DNA from: Armatimonadota bacterium
GTDB lineage: Bacteria; Armatimonadota; Fimbriimonadia; Fimbriimonadales; ATM1
Length of the DNA stretch: 64,000 nucleotides
Assembly: GCA_021324165.1 (NCBI GenBank)
Contig: JAJPJR010000040.1
Span: 62,001 to 126,000, forward strand
Reading direction: 5' to 3'
The position numbers and the translations under genes were made by a program. Positions 4,740 to 62,273 of the stretch are shown one piece after another. Below the pieces are notes generated by a model. That model saw only the letters and a list, made by a program, of their open reading frames with translations. It was not told the DNA's origin and searched no databases. Within the stretch, counting starts at the first letter, position 1; every line of letters begins with the position of its first letter.

Positions 4740-4910
4740 GTGAGCCGACAGCCGTGATTGTCCAGATTTTGTGGGTTTTTTTGATCGTATGCCTTAGAAA
4801 CTCTCGAAAAAAAAAGGCTGGAAGGCGATGTTTTAGTGCTGCTGGCGGCTGTTTTTTTCAGTCTTGAAGTTGGATTTTGAGCCCGAAATAGGGTGTTTAG
4901 GGTAGGGTAG
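4740..4910 (+). promoter_or_regulatory. Putative CRISPR leader
   Basis: Non-coding stretch immediately upstream of the first CRISPR repeat, with runs of T and A (near 4777, 4808 and 4852) and lower GC than its surroundings. No ORF is supported. The repeats are oriented with their ATTGCAAC end to the right, and the degenerate repeat is at the far right end of the array. Both place the leader here. Boundaries are approximate. Confidence 0.55.
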
Positions 4911-5012
4911 GTTGTGTCTCCCGGTCAAACGGGGGCCGATTGCAACGATGTATTCATTTTTCATTCTATCCTCCTGGTTGTGTCTCCCGGTCAAACGGGG
5001 GCCGATTGCAAC
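4911..5012 (+). CRISPR. CRISPR array, leader-proximal part (2 repeats, 1 spacer)
   Basis: Two identical 36-bp repeats (4911-4946 and 4977-5012) flank one 30-bp spacer (4947-4976). The repeat begins GTTGTGTCTCCCGG, has a CCCG/CGGG stem around GTCAAA and ends GATTGCAAC, similar to the ATTGAAAC-type 5' handles of type III and type I crRNAs. The same repeat recurs at 6866-7231. The 1,853 bases between the two blocks are RHS-type coding DNA. Confidence 0.97.
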
Positions 5013-5088
5013 GGAGTCGCATAGAGCCAGGCGGATCGCTAACGACGCTCATTAATGACGGTGCGTACATAATCGAGGAAAGAAGCTG

Positions 5089-6204
5089 ATGGCGGTCACG
5101 ACGTATCGGTACAACGTTCCGGGAAACCTCGCGATGGAGAATCGCGGTGGAACGAAAAGCGCGTACCGTTTCGACGCAAGGGGCAGCACGACTCAGCTCA
5201 TCAACACGAGCGCAACGGTCACGGATACCTTTCAGTTCGACTCGTTTGGAAATCAGGTCTCAAGAACTGGAACGACAGCAACACCATTCACGTTTATGGC
5301 TGGCATTTCGATGTATATGCCAAGCGGCATTTCTCCGGTGTTTGGTGTCTTCGGACCGCTCAGATGGGATCCAAAAACTGGAGGGTTTACGAACGCAGGG
5401 GACGCGATTGCTGGTTGGATGCTGTGGCAGATGTGGCAGGTGCGACTGGCGCTTCTCAGAGCTGAGCTAAACCGGCTGTTCCCGTGGGGGCTTTTACCGG
5501 GATGGCCCTGGCTCGAAATAATCGGCGTGGGCCGGGGGTACCGAACACCAACCCCGCGAGTCGCTCCGCCGATTCCGGTTCAGCCGTCTCCCGGCCCTAT
5601 TCCGCCGCCGCGCAGAGTTTCCCCGCCCTCTAATCCCGCGCCGCGCAGACGTGGTCCGATCGGGCCACGCCCTGCGAGCCGAACGGTTGGAGGGCGATGC
5701 GGAGAGAGTGATCCAATCGGTGCCTTTCAAGGATTTTTGGTTCTGTTCGCTGGAATCGCAAAGTGCACGATCGGGGTGATTTGTGACCCAGCAGGCTGGA
5801 CAATAGACGCATTCGAGATCCTATGGAATTGGGTGGTTTACGATGAACTTCCGGGCGGCGATGCGTGCGAGCTTGGGGCAGACATCGGCTTAAACAGAGC
5901 AGAAGAATCGTTCGAAGAGCAATTTGCTGGCAAAGTCGGTTACGTCGGCGGCAAGTTGCTTGACATCCATTGTTTTGTGAAAACAGTGTCGGATGCCAAG
6001 AAGGCTGCTGGGGCAGTTCCCTCCACTTATGTGGGTTGTAACTACGCTTGCAACTGCGACCAGTGCTGTGCCGACATGTGTAACCAGGACGGTTCATACC
6101 CCATGACAAAGTGGTACAGGTGCGTAACAGCATGCACAAAAGAATGTTGCCCTGGAGATGACGCCGCCATGTTCCCTGTACCTCGGAACGCAGGAGTACA
6201 ATGA
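5089..6204 (+). CDS. RHS-repeat core protein with cysteine-rich C-terminal tip
   Basis: A 371-residue 5'-truncated RHS-type protein. Residues 1-70 match the RHS-associated core (TYRYNVPGNLA, AYRFDARGSTTQLI, DSFGNQVSRTG). After a hydrophobic stretch (about 105-145) comes a proline-rich linker (about 153-200) and a unique tip (205-371) with ten cysteines between 317 and 354. In RHS polymorphic toxins the region after the core is the variable toxin. No toxin family is recognised here; the cysteines may bind metal or form disulfides. A GAGGAAAG site precedes the ATG, so the fragment could be translated alone. Upstream RHS sequence is missing or frameshifted (TGA at 5056 in this frame). Its stop overlaps the next start. 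Confidence 0.65.
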   Translation: MAVTTYRYNVPGNLAMENRGGTKSAYRFDARGSTTQLINTSATVTDTFQFDSFGNQVSRTGTTATPFTFMAGISMYMPSGISPVFGVFGPLRWDPKTGGFTNAGDAIAGWMLWQMWQVRLALLRAELNRLFPWGLLPGWPWLEIIGVGRGYRTPTPRVAPPIPVQPSPGPIPPPRRVSPPSNPAPRRRGPIGPRPASRTVGGRCGESDPIGAFQGFLVLFAGIAKCTIGVICDPAGWTIDAFEILWNWVVYDELPGGDACELGADIGLNRAEESFEEQFAGKVGYVGGKLLDIHCFVKTVSDAKKAAGAVPSTYVGCNYACNCDQCCADMCNQDGSYPMTKWYRCVTACTKECCPGDDAAMFPVPRNAGVQ

Positions 6205-6653
6205 GGACGTTTCTGATTCTTCTCGTTGTTGGTGCGGTTTGCGTGAGTTCGTGCACATCAAAGGGGGGCTTGGAATCAAAAGGAACCGGGGGCCAAGATA
6301 TTCAACCCGCCCTTCCAGCGCCCATTCGCGATGGAACAGTGTTGATCACTATCCCAGCGACGTACATTTCGTCCGGCGGCAAAGAAACCCTAGTGTGGGT
6401 GCCACAACCTTACGAGCAGGTTAAGCGCAAGTTCGACGAAAGTACTGCGGCGGTGAGAACTCCCGCACCGACCGGCGCCCAGCAATTCGAATTTAGCACA
6501 TACAAACTCGAATCTGGAAGAACTATGGCGGCCGTTATGTCGGTCAATCATTTCCACAAGTTTTGGAACGACGCCGACCCACGAGAAGTTGACGTCGCTA
6601 AGACCAAAAGTACAGGAACTTTCATTGTTCTAACACAACTCAATGGCGGTTGA
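6201..6653 (+). CDS. Small lipoprotein, candidate immunity partner of the RHS tip
   Basis: A 150-residue protein with a lipoprotein signal (hydrophobic 3-14, lipobox VSSC with Cys18), then a Gly/Ser linker and a mature domain (about 45-150) that I do not recognise. Its ATG overlaps the RHS stop as ATGA, so the two genes are translationally coupled. In RHS loci the gene directly after the toxin tip is normally the immunity gene, and envelope immunity proteins are often lipoproteins. The role is therefore inferred from position only. Confidence 0.6.
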   Translation: MRTFLILLVVGAVCVSSCTSKGGLESKGTGGQDIQPALPAPIRDGTVLITIPATYISSGGKETLVWVPQPYEQVKRKFDESTAAVRTPAPTGAQQFEFSTYKLESGRTMAAVMSVNHFHKFWNDADPREVDVAKTKSTGTFIVLTQLNGG

Positions 6654-6865
6654 ACAAATTGCTCAAAACTCTGCTGCCACTGATTCGCGTGGAAAAGTCA
6701 CCACCAACACCTACGACACGCTCAATCGCCTGCAAACCAGCACCGATCCGCTCAGCCGCAAAACAACCTACACCTACGACGCCGGGGATCATGTGGTCAG
6801 CATCACCAACCCGATGGGCGAGCAGACGCAGTATATTTACGACGGATGTTTGCTGCAGCAGGCGG
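6643..6865 (+). pseudogene. RHS YD-repeat fragment ending at the CRISPR repeat
   Basis: The frame encodes YD-repeat units (TNTYDTLNRLQTSTDPL, TTYTYDAGDHVVSITNPMG and QYIYDG) typical of the RHS shell, then runs straight into the CRISPR repeat at 6866, where the meaningful sequence ends. It has no start of its own; the nominal ATG overlaps the lipoprotein's end. YD repeats normally lie upstream of the core, so here the RHS parts are out of order (core, tip, lipoprotein, YD). This suggests rearrangement, or the start of a next, truncated RHS unit. Confidence 0.7.
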
Positions 6866-7231
6866 GTTGTGTCTCCCGGTCAAACGGGGGCCGATTGCAA
6901 CGCCTGCTTTGATGCCCGCGCCTGCTTTGATGTTGTGTCTCCCGGTCAAACGGGGGCCGATTGCAACTGTGGCCTTTGGAACCTGCGCCAATGTTTTGTT
7001 GTGTCTCCCGGTCAAACGGGGGCCGATTGCAACTTTGCGCCCCTCATATTGTCAACAGATTGCGTTGTGTCTCCCGGTCAAACGGGGGCCGATTGCAACC
7101 CTTATACTCTGCATCAATAAAATCACTGGGTTGTGTCTCCCGGTCAAACGGGGGCCGATTGCAACTTGCGTCCAGATTTCCTTATAGCAACGCCTGTTGT
7201 GTCTCCCGGTCAAACGGGGGCCGATTGAGGC
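6866..7231 (+). CRISPR. CRISPR array, leader-distal part (6 repeats, 5 spacers)
   Basis: 36-bp repeats start at 6866, 6932, 6998, 7064, 7130 and 7196, with five spacers all exactly 30 bp. The sixth repeat keeps about 31 bases, then changes from TTGCAAC to TTGAGG, the decay expected at the leader-distal end. The sequence matches the block at 4911-5012. Spacer 6902-6931 is internally repeated (GCCTGCTTTGAT twice). The 66-bp period is divisible by three, which creates long spurious open frames here. The array and the cas operon converge. Confidence 0.98.
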
Positions 7232-7331: not shown

Positions 7332-7937
7332 TCAGCTGCCGCGTCGTGCTTGGCCAACAATGCTCGCTTCGATCTTTACTTCCAACCCGCTGTTCTTGCT
7401 GCCAAACCACCAAATTCCACAAAGGTTCTTCAAAAGGAACAGGTTCAGCAACTGTTCAGAATTAAACTTCGTCACCCAAGGATCAACTTCAACGTTCCCG
7501 ATCCGCCTGCTTTTTCCAAACTCCCATCCAGTCAGGCTGTCCTTCCACAAAACCGAAATCTCTCCTTGGAACCTTCCGCCCATCTTCTTCAACATTCCTA
7601 CCGACACAAACCCGACTAAACCTTGCGCCCCGAACAGATAGCAGCAGGGGCACACTTCGTTTGGGTTTTGCTCATCGAATGCGCACACCGGCTTCAATTC
7701 AAGTGCTCTCTCATCGTCAGTGAGTGAGTTCGCGTCTGCCGGAATGCAAGCGCGCCGCAGCCACGATAGGCCGCGTTTCTTTTGCAGTTCGGCTAAGTAC
7801 AGTTCGACCGACGATCGCAGCGCGCCCTTCAGCGTCGAGCCCGGGATGCAATCACGCCCGTTGACTCTTTGAATGATGTTGTTGGGCAATGGTCCGACTG
7901 CGGAAACAGTAACGTTAATCCGACGAGGTTCAATCAT
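7332..7937 (-). CDS. cas7: Type III CRISPR Cas7-family RAMP protein, probable non-catalytic copy
   Basis: A 201-residue Cas7 (Csm3/Cmr4-like) RAMP backbone subunit. It shows the IPGSTLKGALR loop (about 31-41) and CPCCYLFGAQGLVGFV (about 96-111), closely resembling the neighbouring Cas7. Where Csm3-type proteins have GGID and the neighbour has GGVDNP (catalytic aspartate for target RNA cleavage), this copy reads GPLPNNI, so it probably lacks that RNase activity. Last gene of the cas operon; its ATG overlaps the previous stop as ATGA. The subtype of this Cas7 is not resolved. Confidence 0.88.
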   Translation of the reverse strand: MIEPRRINVTVSAVGPLPNNIIQRVNGRDCIPGSTLKGALRSSVELYLAELQKKRGLSWLRRACIPADANSLTDDERALELKPVCAFDEQNPNEVCPCCYLFGAQGLVGFVSVGMLKKMGGRFQGEISVLWKDSLTGWEFGKSRRIGNVEVDPWVTKFNSEQLLNLFLLKNLCGIWWFGSKNSGLEVKIEASIVGQARRGS

Positions 7938-8662
7938 TGTTCTGTGATTTCGACTTTTACTTCGCCAAAGCCTTTCGACTTATATCCACCGATCATCTTG
8001 ATGCTCTGCAGCCGCTTTACCACCAACTCTTCAAGGATCTGTTCTTGGGACTTATCTTTGAAAGGTTCGCAGGTGAGCCACAAGTCCACCTGCCCTTCTT
8101 TTACCCGCCTTGGCTTACCGAACGTCCACCCGCTGGGCGTTTCCAAATCAACGGTAACGTTTCCCGTAAACTGTGTGCCGGGAGCAGCGAATTGATAGGA
8201 TCGGTTGGCGCCTTTCGCCACGGTCGCCGTTGCACGATCAATCCGCGCGGAATACAAGGTTTGCGGGCGGCTTTGCTTTTCGGCAAAAAGAAAAGGTACA
8301 GAAACAAAACCAACTAACCCTTGGGCGCCCAAAATGTAACATACTGGACAGATTGAATTGCCATCAATTTTGCAGGCCTCCTTACGATATCTGGGCGCCG
8401 AACCTTTTTCTGCATCGGAAGGATTAGGAGATGCCAGGCAGGGACAAAGATTTTCCCAACCGTCTTCACTGTCTTCATTGCGACATTGTTCGAACAGATA
8501 CCGTTCCAGTTGGTATCGGTACGCTCCTTTTAGGCTCGGGCCGGGAATGCACATTCTGTCGCCCACCATGGCGATCGGATTGTCAACTCCTCCAAGCGGT
8601 TCGTCCATTCCGCCGATACGGATCGGGCTTACTGCGGTCAAGGTTATGCGATATGTTTTCAT
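7934..8662 (-). CDS. cas7: Type III CRISPR Cas7-family RAMP protein, Csm3-like, catalytic Asp retained
   Basis: A 242-residue Cas7 subunit that would line the crRNA and cut bound target RNA. It has GGVDNP (Asp27, aligning by eye with the Csm3 catalytic aspartate), IPGPSLKGAYR (about 39-49), a cysteine cluster from CPCLASP to CPVCYILGAQGLVGFV, and the C-terminal GGYKSKGFGEV loop. I chose the ATG at 8662 because GGAGG lies eight bases upstream and the codon overlaps the cas11 stop (ATGA); an in-frame ATG at 8677 has no such support. Confidence 0.9.
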   Translation of the reverse strand: MKTYRITLTAVSPIRIGGMDEPLGGVDNPIAMVGDRMCIPGPSLKGAYRYQLERYLFEQCRNEDSEDGWENLCPCLASPNPSDAEKGSAPRYRKEACKIDGNSICPVCYILGAQGLVGFVSVPFLFAEKQSRPQTLYSARIDRATATVAKGANRSYQFAAPGTQFTGNVTVDLETPSGWTFGKPRRVKEGQVDLWLTCEPFKDKSQEQILEELVVKRLQSIKMIGGYKSKGFGEVKVEITEQ

Positions 8663-8943
8663 CTTTGAATCCTCCATGCATCGAACGATTTGATAATCAG
8701 TCTTCCAATTTCGGGAGAGCGTTCGATCTCCGGCGACGCCTGTAACGCCTTGATGATCGTCTTCCCAAACTCTTTATCTTTGCGCCCTCTGGCTCTTGAT
8801 GCATCCAGCCTTCTTAGCGTTTCCTCGGGCCCGAAGAGCACAAACGCATCGCCAAGTTCATTCAGGAACTTGGCCGAAAACCTTGCTTCGCGAAAGTTCG
8901 ATCGAAGATCCGCTTGGATCTCTCTTATGCACTCATCGAACAT
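8659..8943 (-). CDS. cas11: Type III CRISPR small subunit (Cas11-like)
   Basis: A 94-residue, apparently all-helical basic protein between the cas5- and cas7-type genes, the place and size of Csm2/Cmr5 small subunits that form the inner filament of type III complexes. Sequence alone is too diverged for a family call, so identity rests on size, predicted helicity and operon position. AAGGAG lies seven bases before the ATG. It overlaps cas5 by 11 bases and cas7 by 4, consistent with translational coupling. Confidence 0.7.
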   Translation of the reverse strand: MFDECIREIQADLRSNFREARFSAKFLNELGDAFVLFGPEETLRRLDASRARGRKDKEFGKTIIKALQASPEIERSPEIGRLIIKSFDAWRIQR

Positions 8944-9883
8944 CCGTTTCTCCTTCGCCCAGAGCGGGCAGGCATTTGATGATGGCGGCGCCTATCGAGC
9001 GCTCCGCCGAAAGTTGCTGTTTGAACTGTTTCAACGCATCCAGCACATTGAGCAAAACCTGCGCGCCATTTCGCGTTCTGGTTTGATTCTGCTTGGTGAG
9101 CAGATACAGCCGCGTCACTTCAAAACCGTATTGCTCGAACACCTGGGCGGTATTGTTGCGAAAACTCGAACCAGGGCACCGTCTTCCACTGATGGCCCCC
9201 ACAACCGCTTTCAAGATCGGCGCAACATCGTCGGTCTTTTTTGGGCTCTCTGCATCTTGACTCAAAAGAAAGTGATGCGCCGCAACTTCGCTTCCTTCGA
9301 GCAGCGCGCGTTCATAATGCCCATGCTTCCCATGATCAGGAACGAACAGGTAACCGTATCGTGGATGGATGACATTTCTAATCCCCCATTGTTCAAGTGC
9401 CTTCTGGTCATGCAAACACCGAACGGCCAAATCACCTACCTCGGGATTGCCAGGATCAATGCTGGTTTCTTCCAAAGTCACCCGGCAGCGCCCAAAACCG
9501 CTCGATTTCATCCCGCCAAGCTGCAGTTCGAATTCCTCGGGCATTTCTTTGCACGTGAAATCGTTCAGCTGCAAGTGCATTTCGGCTTTAACATCAGCCA
9601 GGTATTCGATCTGCAAAGGCACTTTGCTCACGTTGTGCACCCGATCTCGCGGCGAATAGACTAGTGATTCGGCACGGAAGCTGATAAATCGAGCCGACGC
9701 TACGAATGGACGGTAGTGAGCGGGAAATCTGGCGTTCAATGCTCCAACCAGGCTCGTTGTGGTGAACACTTTCAGGCAAGGTCGAAATGTGGATGCACGC
9801 ATACGCTCCCCCAAGCAGAGCAGATCAACTTCGAGTGAGTACCGCGCATACCGAATACCGTTTTCCTGTTGGTATTTATCCAT
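8933..9883 (-). CDS. cas5: Type III CRISPR Cas5-family RAMP protein (Csm4/Cmr3/Csx10-like)
   Basis: A 316-residue RAMP protein next to cas10. In type III complexes Cas5 caps the backbone and holds the crRNA 5' handle beside Cas10. The first half has RAMP-like strands (RYSLEVDLLCLGE, TTSLVGALNARF) and the glycine-rich loop LGGMKSSGFGRCRV (about 120-133). The second half is unassigned. I chose the ATG at 9883: AAAGGAG lies upstream and the codon overlaps the cas10 stop by eight bases. The longer frame from 9949 lies inside cas10. Confidence 0.82.
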   Translation of the reverse strand: MDKYQQENGIRYARYSLEVDLLCLGERMRASTFRPCLKVFTTTSLVGALNARFPAHYRPFVASARFISFRAESLVYSPRDRVHNVSKVPLQIEYLADVKAEMHLQLNDFTCKEMPEEFELQLGGMKSSGFGRCRVTLEETSIDPGNPEVGDLAVRCLHDQKALEQWGIRNVIHPRYGYLFVPDHGKHGHYERALLEGSEVAAHHFLLSQDAESPKKTDDVAPILKAVVGAISGRRCPGSSFRNNTAQVFEQYGFEVTRLYLLTKQNQTRTRNGAQVLLNVLDALKQFKQQLSAERSIGAAIIKCLPALGEGETDVR

Positions 9884-11699
9884 CTTTGCTCCTTTTGTCA
9901 GAGAGATTGACCAAAACTTTTGCGGTTTCAAACGAAAGTTGTCCTTCATTTAGCAAAGTTCCGAGTTCTGTGTCGCAAGTATCCTTGTTTTTCATCACCA
10001 GTTTAGCCAGCGATTCAGAACGATTTGCAACGGATGCAAGCAGATGGACGGCGTGAGCCTTCATGCTGCTGATGGCGTTGAGTACTTTCTCGGCGTCTTT
10101 GATCTTCAAGGAAGCCGTACCGCTTGCCACGAGGTTAATAATGAGTTCATCGGAAGGGTTTTCCAAATACCGCCAATGGTCAAAAAACGGATGCTTCGCG
10201 TTGGACACGGAAAGTCCAAATCGGATCGGACACTCAATGTCGCCGATCAGTTTTGGAAAGCTGTTCTTCATTTCATTGCAGATTCGTCGCAGGATGAAAT
10301 TCACTTTCGTTCGGTCATCATGCAAATGGCAGCACCACAACCATGGCGCGTTGTTCGTGGCCGCAACTTGTTGAACGCAGTCGACTGTCAAGAGGTCTAT
10401 GAGCATTTTGTTAACCGAGTCTAAGAAGCAGGAATAGTCCGTCAAAAAATCAACGACTGTTGGAATCGGCACATACAGGTTGTTACCGAGTCCTTCATTC
10501 GGCGTCTTTAGTTTGCTTTCAAGGTATTCCTTATGGAGATACGTGAGGGACGAGTGTAGTTGATTCAAATCTAAGTGCGTCCGCACCCAGACGACCGATC
10601 CCGTCTGCCAGTTCTGCAGTTTGGTGAGCGAGAGTGCTTGCTCGCGAATCTCGTAACAATCTTCACAAAGATCTTCTTGCGGTTCTTCCGGCATGCGGCG
10701 CTGCGGCCACACTTTGTCTGCGTGTGCCGCCTGGCAGTTTTCGCAGATCGGCAAGTCAATCCTCTCAGCAGGCTCTGATTCGCACAATCTTCGGTCGGAT
10801 TGTGCGAGTGTTTCAAGCGGAGACTGATTGCTTTGAAGTGATCCCAGTTGCCAATTACCCTCCATGACAAACGGACGCAACTTTTCGCGAAACATTTCGA
10901 TGAGTTTTTCGTTCTCGTACACAACAATCATCTGGTTTTCCACAACAGCCAGCACATGATCAGGAAACTCTTTGCGGGTTTCCTCGATGCGTTGCGCAAC
11001 AGCCGCGAACACGCCAAGATCGCGGGCTCGATAAGGCCGCTGTTTGAATGCCGCCTCGATCCGCGCAGCCCAAAGCCTCATCCCGCCTGCAAGTGGGTTG
11101 ATATCGCGCCATTCTGCTCCGGCCTTGACAGCGGACCAGTCCATTTTGGCGATCACGCGCGCCAGCTTGCCAGCAACTTCAGAATGCGCCAGCAAAGTTG
11201 TAACATTCATTCCGCCGCGGCGTATCTCCGGTCGAGATAACAGGTGTGATTTGTACTTTTCTTTGGTTTCGTCCCAACTAGGATCCTTGTTGAGAAACTG
11301 AATGAGATCTTTGAGGTCACTTTTTGTGGTGATGAAGGTAGTTCTGCGACATTTGTTTGTCCACAGGCAGTAGTAGTGATACTCTGGATCCGCATTAACT
11401 TGGTGTTCGGGCACCGTTCTGCCGAAGCCTGCCGCCAGGTGGTCTGCGAAACTCACGAAGAGCCAAGCGTTGGAGTCCTTGTAATGTTTTTCCAGGAGCT
11501 CGGTGTTCTTTCTGGAAATGCATCGCCAGCACGCGTTGCTATCCAGGCGCAGGTCCCACTGATCGGGATGTTTGAGGCATTTCTCGAACTCGTGCGGGTC
11601 TGGCTCAGATGTCTCTCGCAACCCAACCGCTGTCCAATCAACGATCTTGCCGATGTCGTGGAAGTCGGCCTTCGGGTCGTCTGGCGTGCTCTCTTTCAC
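9876..11699 (-). CDS. cas10: Cas10-like type III large subunit with HD motif but no GGDD motif
   Basis: A 607-residue diverged Cas10. The N-terminal HD nuclease part shows DFHDIGK (His14, Asp15) and FADHLAA (84-90), a typical Cas10 pairing. A zinc ribbon has CENC (319-322) and CEDC (345-348). The palm region keeps FGLSVSNAKHPFFDHW (494-509), like the segment after the active site in other Cas10s, but GGDD is absent; the aligned spot seems to read LHDD (459-462). DNA cleavage may thus be kept and cyclic-oligoadenylate synthesis lost, as described for subtypes III-C and III-F. An upstream in-frame stop at 11706-11708 fixes GTG 11699 as the start. It is shorter than most Cas10s and heads a five-gene coupled operon. 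Confidence 0.85.
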   Translation of the reverse strand: MKESTPDDPKADFHDIGKIVDWTAVGLRETSEPDPHEFEKCLKHPDQWDLRLDSNACWRCISRKNTELLEKHYKDSNAWLFVSFADHLAAGFGRTVPEHQVNADPEYHYYCLWTNKCRRTTFITTKSDLKDLIQFLNKDPSWDETKEKYKSHLLSRPEIRRGGMNVTTLLAHSEVAGKLARVIAKMDWSAVKAGAEWRDINPLAGGMRLWAARIEAAFKQRPYRARDLGVFAAVAQRIEETRKEFPDHVLAVVENQMIVVYENEKLIEMFREKLRPFVMEGNWQLGSLQSNQSPLETLAQSDRRLCESEPAERIDLPICENCQAAHADKVWPQRRMPEEPQEDLCEDCYEIREQALSLTKLQNWQTGSVVWVRTHLDLNQLHSSLTYLHKEYLESKLKTPNEGLGNNLYVPIPTVVDFLTDYSCFLDSVNKMLIDLLTVDCVQQVAATNNAPWLWCCHLHDDRTKVNFILRRICNEMKNSFPKLIGDIECPIRFGLSVSNAKHPFFDHWRYLENPSDELIINLVASGTASLKIKDAEKVLNAISSMKAHAVHLLASVANRSESLAKLVMKNKDTCDTELGTLLNEGQLSFETAKVLVNLSDKRSKDG

Positions 11700-11828: not shown

Positions 11829-12788
11829 TTATCCCCCGCCGGAGCCGGGCTTATAGTTCCCGTGCCCGAACCCGCCGCCTCCGAATCCGCCTCCGAATCC
11901 GCCCGAGCCGGCTTCGAAGCCGCGCACCCCGCCCGAAAGATAATAAACCCCCTCGCGCGCAACGCGCGAGGCTGAAACGATCTTCTGCAAGAACGCCTCG
12001 CACGCCTTCAAATCCGGCGGAACGTTTTTCTTGACTGACAGCAGTTCCGCATCCGCGGCATAACTTTTGATCACCTTCAGCCCGCTCGCTGCAAAAAGAT
12101 CGTGGTTCGAAAACAGGTCAGCCGAATTCACGCTGCCGTTCAGCGTGCAGATGACTCCGATCACGTTGTCATCGCCCACAACCCCCGCAAACAGTTTGGA
12201 TGCAACTGCGCTGATTCGCTTTTGCACTTCGGGGTCGCTCAGTGTGGCTTGAATCGTTCCGGTATCGGCGGTCTTGCCCGCCTTAGCGTTGGTTTCGGCC
12301 ACTTTGTTCCAAACTTCCTGCTGATTTTTGGATTGCGCGGCTGCTTGGCGGACTTCGTCGTTCACCAACATTCCGGAATCGCCGAATGAAAGCTTTTCTC
12401 CCCGCCACCTGCCGTGCTCCACGCAAAAAACTGGCACTTGCAAACTGGATCGCGGCGGAACGATGGTGTCTTTCCCCACAATGCGATCTTGTTTGCCTCC
12501 CAACAAAAGTTCGCCGGCAAACAGCAGCAAGGGCAGTTCGGCGCGGTTGCGGACTTCGAGCGAATTCACCTGCTCCATTCCGGGCACTTCGATAATTTCA
12601 ACCAACTTTTGGCGGATCGCTTCCGAAAGCGTGATGTATTTCTCGCGCGAAATCGGCTTTTCGCTAATGACAGGAACCAGCGCGATGCATCCCTCTTGCA
12701 CCGGTTTGCCCAAAGAAAACTTTGGGGGCGAGAGCGGCGTGTGTACCGTTTGAGCCAATAGCGCTCCGATCAGAAAAACCTCTTTCAT
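11829..12788 (-). CDS. ARPP-1 (DUF6569) domain protein
   Basis: A 319-residue protein with a weak signal-like N-terminus (MKEVFLIGALLAQTVHT). The core carries the ARPP-1/DUF6569 signature: LPLLLFAGELLLGGKQDRIV and PPRSSLQVPVFCVEHGRW. The C-terminus is glycine-rich (about 280-319). The family is widespread but functionally uncharacterised; it is named for co-occurrence with ADP-ribosylglycohydrolase and rhodanese-phosphatase domains. I chose the ATG at 12788 (GGAGG seven bases upstream) over a TTG at 12803. It lies about 130 bases from the cas10 start and is not part of the cas operon. Confidence 0.8.
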   Translation of the reverse strand: MKEVFLIGALLAQTVHTPLSPPKFSLGKPVQEGCIALVPVISEKPISREKYITLSEAIRQKLVEIIEVPGMEQVNSLEVRNRAELPLLLFAGELLLGGKQDRIVGKDTIVPPRSSLQVPVFCVEHGRWRGEKLSFGDSGMLVNDEVRQAAAQSKNQQEVWNKVAETNAKAGKTADTGTIQATLSDPEVQKRISAVASKLFAGVVGDDNVIGVICTLNGSVNSADLFSNHDLFAASGLKVIKSYAADAELLSVKKNVPPDLKACEAFLQKIVSASRVAREGVYYLSGGVRGFEAGSGGFGGGFGGGGFGHGNYKPGSGGG

Positions 12789-12845
12789 CAGATGCCTCCG
12801 CAACGTTCGGACGCCCGAAAGGCGGCAGGGTTTCGCCGCTCGGCG

Positions 12846-59811: not shown

Positions 59812-62273
59812 TCCTCTTCGGCCTCTTCGCCTTCGCCGGTGTCGCTCTCTTTCACCAGCCTTGCAATCGAAGCGACCTGATCTTCGGGCTTCAAATTAAT
59901 CAGTTTCACGCCTTGCGCGATCCGCCCGACGGTTCGAACCTCTTTTACGCGCAGCCGAATGGCTTGGCCGCGCACGGTCATCAGAACCAGTTGATCATCG
60001 TTTTCAACGATTTCGGCGCCAACCACTTTTCCTGTTTTTTCGGTAACGTTCATCGTAATGAGTCCGCGCCCGCCGCGCCTTTGCGCTCGATAATCTTTGA
60101 TTGGAGTGCGCTTGCCATAACCGTTTTGTCCGGCAACCAAAACCGTGGCGTTTTCATCGTCCACAATCGCCGCGCTTACCACAACGTCGCCTTTGTCCAA
60201 ACGGATTCCGCGAACCCCGCCTGCGGCGCGGCTTCGTCCCCGCAGTTCCGTTTCGTTGAATCGAATGCTCATTCCGTTTCGCGTAATCATCAGCAGATCC
60301 TGTTTTCCCGAACTTCGCAAAACCCATTCCAGTTCGTCGCCTTCTTCAATATCAAACGCGCGCAGGCCGTTCACGCGGATGTTCTGAAAATCGTTAATCG
60401 GCGTCCGCTTGATCTCGCCGAACTTCGTAACCATCACCAAATAACCTTCGCCTTTGATGTCGCGCACACTGATGGTGGCCGTCACTTTCTCGCCGCTTTC
60501 AATTTGAATGTAGTTGATGACCGGCGTGCCTTTGCTGTAGCGGCCGCTTTCGGGAATGTCATACGCGCGCAGCCGGTACACCCTCCCGCGATCCGTGAAG
60601 AATAAAATGTAGTTGTGCGTGCTCACCTGGAAAAGGTGCGCAACTTCGTCCATCTCTTTCATCGTGGCGCCGATTACGCCTTTTCCGCCGCGGCGCTGGC
60701 TCCTGTACGCATCGAAACTCACGCGTTTGATATATCCGTCGCGGCTGATCGAGATGATCGCTTCCTCGTCGGGAATCATGTCTTCATCGCCGATTTCGTC
60801 GGCTTCCATCGCGATGATCTTCGTCCGCCTTTCATCACCGTGCTTCTTCTTCAACTCTTCGAGTTCCGATTTCATCAACTCAATCAGCCGCTGCGGGTCG
60901 CTCAGAATGTCCATAAGATTTGCAACTTTACGAAGAACGTTCTTATAATCCTCCTCAAGCTTTTTCTGCTCCAGCCGCGTGAGGCGCCTTAGCTGCATAT
61001 TCAAAATGACATTCGCTTGAAACATCGTGAGCCCGAACCTTGTAACCAGTTCGCGGCGGGCGTCTTCGGGGTCGTCGCTGTTGCGAATCACTCTGATCAC
61101 TTCGTCCAAGTTCGCACGCGCGATCTGATAGCCCTCCAAAATGTGAGCCTCTTCCAACGTGCGATTGAGTTCGTATCGCGTCCGCCGCTCGATGACCGTC
61201 TTTCGGTGCAGAATGTATTCATCCAGAAGCATCGAAAGCGATGCAACGCGCGGAACGCCTTCGATCAAGCTGAGCATGATCGCACCGAACGTCGTGCGCA
61301 GCGAAGTGTGTTTCAGCAGATAGTTCAGGGCCTTGTTCGGATTGCCTTCGCGCTTGATGGTAACTTCAATGCGCATGCCGCGGCGGTCGGAGTAGTCGTC
61401 AATGCCGCTGATTGCATCCATCTTTTTGTTGCGGATGATGTCGGCAACTTGGCTGATCAACGTGCTTTTGTTCACTTGGAACGGAATTTCGCTGATCACA
61501 ATCACGCTGCGACCACCGTCGGTGGGTTCAATCGCCGTTTTTGCTTGCATCACGATGGATCCGCGCCCTGTTTCATACATACTTTTGATTCCGCGCGTGC
61601 CAAGAATCACGCCATACGTCGGAAAGTCGGGCCCCGGCAGATGCGTCATCAAATCGGCAATTGTGCAGTCCGGATGATCAATGCGATGCAAAATCGCATT
61701 CACCACTTCGGTCAAATTGTGGGGCGGAAGGTTGGTCGCCATACCCACGGCGATTCCCGATCCCCCGTTGCACAAAAGGTTGGGAAACTTCCCAGGAAGA
61801 ACCAAAGGCTCGTTGAGCGTTTGCGAATAGTTGGGCACCCAGTCTACGGTCTCGCGATCCAGGTCTTCAAGCAGTTCCATCGAAATGGGAGCGAGCCGCG
61901 CCTCCGTGTATCGCATGGCGGCGGGCGGGTCGCCGTCCACGCTTCCAAAATTGCCTTGCGGCGAGATGAGCGGATAGCGCATCGTAAAGTTTTGGGCCAG
62001 CCGCGCAAGGGTGGGGTACACAACGCCCTCGCCGTGGGGGTGATAATTGCCCGAGCACGCGCCGCAAATCTTCGCGCATTTGGTGCGAGGGCGGTCAGGC
62101 GTCAGGCCCTCTTCGAGCATCGTGTAAAGAATCCGCCTTTGAACCGGTTTCAGGCCGTCCCTCACGTCGGGCAGCGCTCTGGCCAGAAGCACGCTCATCG
62201 CGTAATTCAGATAGGAGCGCGACATCTCCTCGGCAATCGGAACGTTCTCTATCAACTGCTCGTTTTCGGCCAA
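59808..62273 (-). CDS. gyrA: DNA gyrase subunit A
   Basis: An 821-residue type IIA topoisomerase subunit. The breakage domain has LPDVRDGLKPVQRRILY, YHPHGEGVVYPTLARLAQ and AAMRYTEARLAPIS with the catalytic tyrosine. The C-terminal pinwheel includes the GyrA box QRRGGRG (in DYRAQRRGGRGLI), which separates it from ParC. The tail is acidic. TTG start; the upstream TATCAGG offers only a weak ribosome site. It overlaps the aldolase gene by four bases. No gyrB nearby. Confidence 0.97.
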   Translation of the reverse strand: MAENEQLIENVPIAEEMSRSYLNYAMSVLLARALPDVRDGLKPVQRRILYTMLEEGLTPDRPRTKCAKICGACSGNYHPHGEGVVYPTLARLAQNFTMRYPLISPQGNFGSVDGDPPAAMRYTEARLAPISMELLEDLDRETVDWVPNYSQTLNEPLVLPGKFPNLLCNGGSGIAVGMATNLPPHNLTEVVNAILHRIDHPDCTIADLMTHLPGPDFPTYGVILGTRGIKSMYETGRGSIVMQAKTAIEPTDGGRSVIVISEIPFQVNKSTLISQVADIIRNKKMDAISGIDDYSDRRGMRIEVTIKREGNPNKALNYLLKHTSLRTTFGAIMLSLIEGVPRVASLSMLLDEYILHRKTVIERRTRYELNRTLEEAHILEGYQIARANLDEVIRVIRNSDDPEDARRELVTRFGLTMFQANVILNMQLRRLTRLEQKKLEEDYKNVLRKVANLMDILSDPQRLIELMKSELEELKKKHGDERRTKIIAMEADEIGDEDMIPDEEAIISISRDGYIKRVSFDAYRSQRRGGKGVIGATMKEMDEVAHLFQVSTHNYILFFTDRGRVYRLRAYDIPESGRYSKGTPVINYIQIESGEKVTATISVRDIKGEGYLVMVTKFGEIKRTPINDFQNIRVNGLRAFDIEEGDELEWVLRSSGKQDLLMITRNGMSIRFNETELRGRSRAAGGVRGIRLDKGDVVVSAAIVDDENATVLVAGQNGYGKRTPIKDYRAQRRGGRGLITMNVTEKTGKVVGAEIVENDDQLVLMTVRGQAIRLRVKEVRTVGRIAQGVKLINLKPEDQVASIARLVKESDTGEGEEAEED

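Follow-up and report, generated by a model that had tools for sequence, protein, structure and literature searches.

Does a type III CRISPR operon whose Cas10 has an HD nuclease motif and no cyclase motif, and which carries two Cas7 genes, belong to a known subtype, and what would such a module do? The locus that raises this question occupies positions 7332-11699 of the window, i.e. the 64,000-nucleotide stretch analysed here (positions 62,001 to 126,000 of contig JAJPJR010000040.1 from an Armatimonadota bacterium). Five intact and mutually overlapping open reading frames (ORFs) run on the minus strand from 11699 down to 7332, in the order cas10, cas5::cas11, cas11, cas7a and cas7b. An earlier, sequence-only reading had listed them as Cas10, Cas5, a Cas11-like protein and two Cas7 proteins, which was right as to the ORFs and their overlap and missed that the "Cas5" ORF is a Cas5::Cas11 fusion. 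It had also supposed that the locus may fit neither III-C nor III-F, which did not hold: all four protein families fit III-F with the PADLOC models. Judged from these families, the operon is a genuine subtype III-F effector module with an unusual subunit set, found in one genome. Its novel part is the doubled Cas11 and the doubled and trimmed Cas7, not Cas10 and not the mechanism, so that the new variant once suggested stands for the extra Cas7 and Cas11 and falls for Cas10, which is not unusual.

Subtype of the operon and its Cas10

The RAMP fold of the two Cas7 proteins was the only convincing recognition that Pfam and NCBIfam gave in the operon. A search with subtype profiles, which the sequence-only reading had suggested as a check, gave III-F: the best PADLOC matches are Cas5_IIIf for Cas5, Cas7_IIIf for both Cas7 proteins and Cas11f for both Cas11 modules. 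Cas10 (607 amino acids, GTG start; 9876-11699) matched a single PADLOC model, Cas10a|Cas10f (E-value 7.4e-55), and no second one. A III-A system would have a GGDD-type cyclase and the subunits Csm2 to Csm5; here the cyclase motif is absent, and Cas7a scores 1.1e-56 with Cas7_IIIf versus 1.2e-17 with the best Csm3 model. A III-C system would have Cmr-type subunits, and the Cmr4 models give at most 1.9e-7 for Cas7a, well below Cas7_IIIf. Like other III-F loci, the window combines a Cas10 that has HD and no cyclase motif with the III-F Cas5, Cas11 and Cas7 families, and has neither an effector nor an adjacent cas6; unlike them, it has a free Cas11 in addition to a Cas5::Cas11 fusion, an extra Cas7 that lacks the thumb, and an adjacent CRISPR array, which most III-F loci lack according to PMC12669027, where III-F is mentioned beside III-H.

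Relatives were found by a scan of GTDB genomes with the Cas7 alignment, in which 93 pattern hits led to eight loci (L007-L014), and by searches with hidden Markov models (HMMs), which added G1085 (L034), G913 (L035) and G1110 (L036). These 11 relatives have the same gene families and belong to Sumerlaeota, Chloroflexi, Armatimonadota and archaea. HMM matches occurred in 3 of 398 genomes of Thermoproteota, 2 of 40 of Sumerlaeota, 1 of 227 of the phylum of the Asgard locus and 3 of 400 of Chloroflexota (two of these three weak, 1.7e-12 and 4.2e-11, and unused), counts that include the centre genomes, with phyla named from the centre loci. Two of 291 Armatimonadota genomes matched, both with Cas10 and Cas7, namely the window genome and G230, which carries the L009 contig. 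III-F is thus rare, since few genomes per phylum match. The sample has no known Thermotogota member, although the III-F reference locus is from Thermotogota (PMC8036902). As for plasmids, Cas7a used as a tblastn query found nothing in PLSDB, and none of 32 pattern hits in IMG/VR was confirmed.

Cas10 keeps the HD motif FHDIGK (residues 13-18; 11646-11663) and a zinc ribbon made of two CxxC pairs (residues 319-322, 10734-10745, and 345-348, 10656-10667), as already noted from the sequence. HD[IV]GK is present in 10 of the 10 relatives with an N-terminus, a count that leaves out L010 and, of the split L009 protein, the C-terminal half, since both lack the N-terminal region. The absence of GGDD was likewise confirmed: neither this motif nor any variant given for active Cas10 in PMC11229360 occurs in the 607 amino acids, and GGDD was found in none of the Cas10 proteins checked in the 11 III-F loci.

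We then examined the fold. The AlphaFold2 (AF2) model of Cas10 was built from ten III-F rows, two of which are the halves of the broken L009 protein; it has a mean predicted local distance difference test (pLDDT) of 74.2 (87 and 92 for blocks 441-450 and 451-460) and a predicted template modelling score of 0.82. It aligns over residues 4-605 with Csm1/Cas10 structures (best Z 14.7, root-mean-square deviation 5.7 over 514 residues), and the helical C-terminus is present (residues 533-600 of the model; the alignment with Csm1 reaches residue 605). By sequence, Cas10 as a single query matched no solved structure, and a profile search of solved structures gave a weak match to the III-D Cas10 8bmw_K. 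We take the GGDD of active Cas10 to sit in the turn of the Palm hairpin, and the corresponding place in the window protein rests on hairpin topology because the structure aligner yields ranges and not residue pairs. The predicted hairpin consists of strands 442-448 and 451-460, with its turn at about 448-451, where the residues are TNNA (10347-10358). The sequence-only reading had put LHDD at this place. This assignment had to be abandoned, for LHDD (residues 459-462; 10314-10325) is predicted one strand further on, at the end of the second strand and before helix 465-480, and it faces a non-conserved stretch in the III-F Cas10 alignment; hairpin and alignment together rule it out as a degenerate GGDD. 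Motif reading alone is misleading here, because the L007 Cas10 has a chance WGDD ahead of its first Palm strand. According to its sequence and predicted fold, the window Cas10 is without a cyclase site. No intact site was found elsewhere in the protein and the operon did not match best an ordinary III-A, III-B or III-D system, the two outcomes that had been named as speaking against the sequence-only reading. Nor is Cas10 short, as had been thought: the uncut frames of the III-F relatives measure about 599-688 amino acids from stop to stop.

No effector of cyclic oligoadenylate (cOA) signalling had been seen near the operon, and PADLOC matched none in the five flanking proteins scanned. Cleavage of DNA by the HD domain without cOA signalling is still the best reading of such a module; it is not new, because HD-positive, cyclase-negative Cas10 proteins without effectors are already described for III-F (PMC11229360). 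III-F is also predicted to cleave DNA (PMC8036902).

Doubled Cas11 and a trimmed second Cas7

The fusion ORF encodes 338 amino acids from the first ATG (8933-9949) and matches Cas5_IIIf over residues 34-230 (2.9e-39) and Cas11f over residues 262-328 (5.6e-11; 8966-9166). Its start is probably at 9883, where an MDK corresponds to the N-terminus of Cas5 in L009. The C-terminal part also matches the free Cas11 of L008 (6.9e-14) and of L036 (6.2e-13). Beside it stands a second, free cas11 of 94 amino acids (8659-8943), which matches Cas11f (4.9e-8) and the L014 Cas11 (2.7e-8). The operon thus has two Cas11 modules, because the "Cas5" ORF contains a C-terminal Cas11f domain next to a separate Cas11. 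None of the 11 relatives has both forms: six (L007, L008, L009, L014, L034 and L036) have a free Cas11 and an unfused Cas5, the archaeal L010-L013 have the fusion and no free Cas11, and the searches detected no Cas11 in L035.

The archaeal fusions resemble that of the window in their length (about 330 amino acids), whereas their loci have no free Cas11, a single Cas7 and a Cas5 of another clade. Indeed, in the Cas5 tree the window groups with L007, L009 and L036 (support 99/99), and L010-L013 form a separate clade (100/100). Since the two clades stand apart, the Cas5::Cas11 fusion probably arose twice, and the window and archaeal fusions would then be independent. The III-F locus of Armatimonadota SKW42 (L009) shares with the window its phylum, the order cas10-cas5-cas11-cas7 and a Cas5 that is 53% identical over 207 columns; it differs in an unfused Cas5, one Cas11, one Cas7, its frame breaks and its neighbours. 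On that contig (L004:259-6923) the III-F genes adjoin cas7c, cas4 and cas1-like genes, by eye a type I-C module. The frame breaks are in cas10 and cas7 and reflect either sequencing error or decay.

The Cas5 tree also bears on the idea that the locus is a new subtype instead of a variant of III-F. Cas7b and two Cas11 modules are unseen in the 11 other III-F loci, which would suit it; against this, the window Cas5 lies inside the 99/99 clade and every family scores as III-F. We consider a new subtype highly improbable and rejected it, the Cas5 tree giving no separation from III-F. Of the phylogenies that had been suggested as a check, that of Cas5 was resolved; the Cas7 tree, like that of Cas11, was mostly unresolved, with Cas7b meeting the long L035 branch.

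The two Cas7 genes are adjacent. cas7a (247 amino acids; 7934-8677) encodes the III-F backbone Cas7, and cas7b (201 amino acids; 7332-7937; Cas7_IIIf 6.4e-23) encodes a paralogue and has its start within the cas7a stop (7934-7937). Both were placed in an alignment of 12 rows (Cas7b and eleven III-F Cas7 proteins, L035 being left out), in which Cas7b has its highest identity with Cas7a, 40% over 181 columns. Cas7b has lost 33 residues, which correspond to residues 131-163 of Cas7a (8189-8287) and whose columns Cas7b alone leaves empty, all 11 other rows having residues there. We call this segment the thumb, a label that we borrow from the presumed anatomy of Csm3. At the position of Csm3 Asp33, which we take to be the catalytic ribonuclease residue, Cas7a has Asp32 (8582-8584, from phmmer alignments to Csm3 chains) and Cas7b has Asn. 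Elsewhere Cas7b retains those core residues that are invariant in the family, Cys and Gly positions included. Its best AF2 model (pLDDT 79.3) is a Csm3-like Cas7 (Z 12.4), and the protein matches the III-F Cas7 model (6e-23) better than the Csm5 models (8e-4).

Each of the 11 relatives showed one III-F cas7, and none showed a second; the sequences of L011, L013, L034 and L035 end no more than about 300 bases past cas7, and a following cas7b was excluded there through genome-wide searches only. G295 has two weak Cas7 hits (about 1e-6), on another contig. A full-text literature search, mostly at the level of titles and abstract starts, returned no III-F locus with two Cas7 genes or a Cas5::Cas11 fusion, which is weak evidence of absence, and no experimental study of III-F.

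The Asp of Cas7a raises the alternative that the system is first of all an RNA-guided RNA nuclease, in which cleavage of target RNA by Cas7a would be the main activity and HD a minor one. Besides the alignment of Asp32 with Csm3 Asp33, it can draw on the Asp found there in 9 of the 12 main III-F Cas7 proteins (the window and 8 of 11 relatives). This residue is nonetheless missing in the other three (Glu in L008 and L036, Lys in L035, the latter by eye), HD is conserved in all ten relatives in which it could be looked for, and III-F is predicted to be a DNA cleaver (PMC8036902), so that we regard this alternative as unlikely. Mutants of the active-site Asp of Cas7 are described for III-Dv in PMC11026444.

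CRISPR array and possible decay

The array lies on the plus strand and consists of eight 36-nt repeats, identical save the last, operon-proximal one. Its left piece (4911-5012) has two repeats and one 30-nt spacer, and its right piece (6866-7231) six repeats, the last degenerate, and five 30-nt spacers. As the degenerate repeat is on the operon side, the AT-rich stretch that precedes position 4911 (4770-4910, as read from the sequence) is probably the leader. Between repeats 2 and 3 lies a Rhs-like segment of 1,853 bp (5013-6865; RHS_repeat 3e-14 in ORF 6643-6912), which is either an insertion or an assembly join. From 5089 to 6653 it holds, by eye, a Rhs-like C-terminal fragment and then a small lipoprotein-like ORF, with no Pfam or PADLOC match. 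Even with as many as 3 mismatches allowed, the repeat does not recur elsewhere in the genome, and it has only short chance matches elsewhere in the window, where Rfam found nothing. When a 22-base core of each of the six 30-nt spacers was looked for in IMG/VR as an exact match, none was found. Cas6 was not found in the genome with PF10040 and TIGR01877, for which positive controls worked.

The only Cas1 of the genome is encoded with Cas2 and Cas9 on contig C68, in a II-C-like locus (L024:1-5798; subtype letter by eye) that comprises a Cas9 of 1040 amino acids, Cas1, Cas2 and an array. The repeat of that array, also of 36 nt, is different, yet its period is the same 66 bp (36/30 geometry) as on the III-F side, and both arrays may share one adaptation machine. 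Among the relatives, L036 has a CRISPR array close to its III-F operon (L036:34-197). Its repeat looks to us like type I-C, which suggests borrowed CRISPR RNAs (crRNAs).

These features could also belong to an ordinary III-F locus in decay, with Cas7b and the second Cas11 as non-functional duplicates, a disrupted array and a dying system. The long branches of Cas7b (1.65), free Cas11 (2.37) and fused Cas11 (1.71) would agree with this, as would the 1.85-kb insert in the array, the lack of Cas6 and of a Cas1 of its own, and the spacers without a viral match in IMG/VR. Decay is less easily reconciled with five intact, overlapping ORFs, a cas7b start inside the cas7a stop, an invariant core kept in Cas7b and repeats that are identical save the last. 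Absence of cas6 is moreover usual in III-F, Cas5 being suggested as the processing enzyme (PMC8616872), and the lack of an array in most III-F loci (PMC12669027) points the same way. We thus hold decay to be a real but minor possibility, ahead of the RNA nuclease alternative.

Proposed complex and neighbouring genes

The reading that we favour, with moderate confidence, is a III-F variant whose end subunits are specific to their positions and which would provide HD-based DNA immunity without a second messenger. The Cas5::Cas11 protein would hold the 5' end of the crRNA, a Cas7a filament would hold the remainder and free Cas11 would fill the minor filament. Cas7b, thumb-less and catalytically substituted, would most likely stand as a single copy at the 3' end, a cap like the Csm5 of III-A. 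Pairing with target RNA would license the HD nuclease of Cas10, leading to a cut in the transcribed DNA. No second messenger would be made, and Cas7a may, through its Csm3-type Asp, cut target RNA as well.

A role as cap would explain the Cas7b sequence most economically. We assume that III-A Csm5 is a non-catalytic terminal Cas7 beside the catalytic Csm3, and it is in this that Cas7b would resemble it. III-A Csm also shares the Cas10 fold with the window, whereas its Cas10 usually makes cOA. A type III filament with one non-catalytic Cas7 alongside catalytic ones is described in PMC11127173. Among the Cas7 proteins of III-Dv, only the Cas7-insertion subunit does not flip bases via a thumb hairpin, and Cas5 is joined there to Cas11 inside a larger fusion (PMC11026444); unlike the window, III-Dv has fused single-copy Cas7 proteins, Csx19 and different families. 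A more tentative proposal, to which we give somewhat less than even odds, is that end-specific subunits re-evolved from the own parts of III-F, a Cas7 copy losing its thumb and catalytic Asp to become a Csm5-like 3' cap and one Cas11 copy being joined to the 5'-end Cas5. If true, type III immunity free of signalling would rely on a filament whose ends are fixed, and the locus would show a one-Cas7 filament gaining a cap. The compact III-F module would be a simple system in which to see how type III filaments come by subunits specific to their ends, and also to ask whether HD alone gives immunity without cOA signalling.

Several observations weigh against the favoured reading. The only model matched by Cas10 carries the annotation CAS-III-A and serves both III-A and III-F. 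The III-F Cas7 proteins are not uniform at the Asp position, with the Glu and Lys residues given above. The other four of the five AF2 models of Cas7b have a pLDDT of 45-67, and the best one matches Csm3 (backbone) structures and not Csm5 in particular, the position proposed for Cas7b within the filament being a deduction. The long branches of Cas7b and of both Cas11 modules fit decay as well, and the source of crRNAs is unsure because the array is split and no Cas6 was found.

The neighbours of the locus encode ARPP-1, GYF_2/TM2, FtsZ, DnaK and DnaJ (by eye) and Rhs pieces. The ARPP-1 domain protein (1.1e-63), which has a glycine-rich tail, is encoded at 11829-12803, directly upstream of cas10 and on the same strand.

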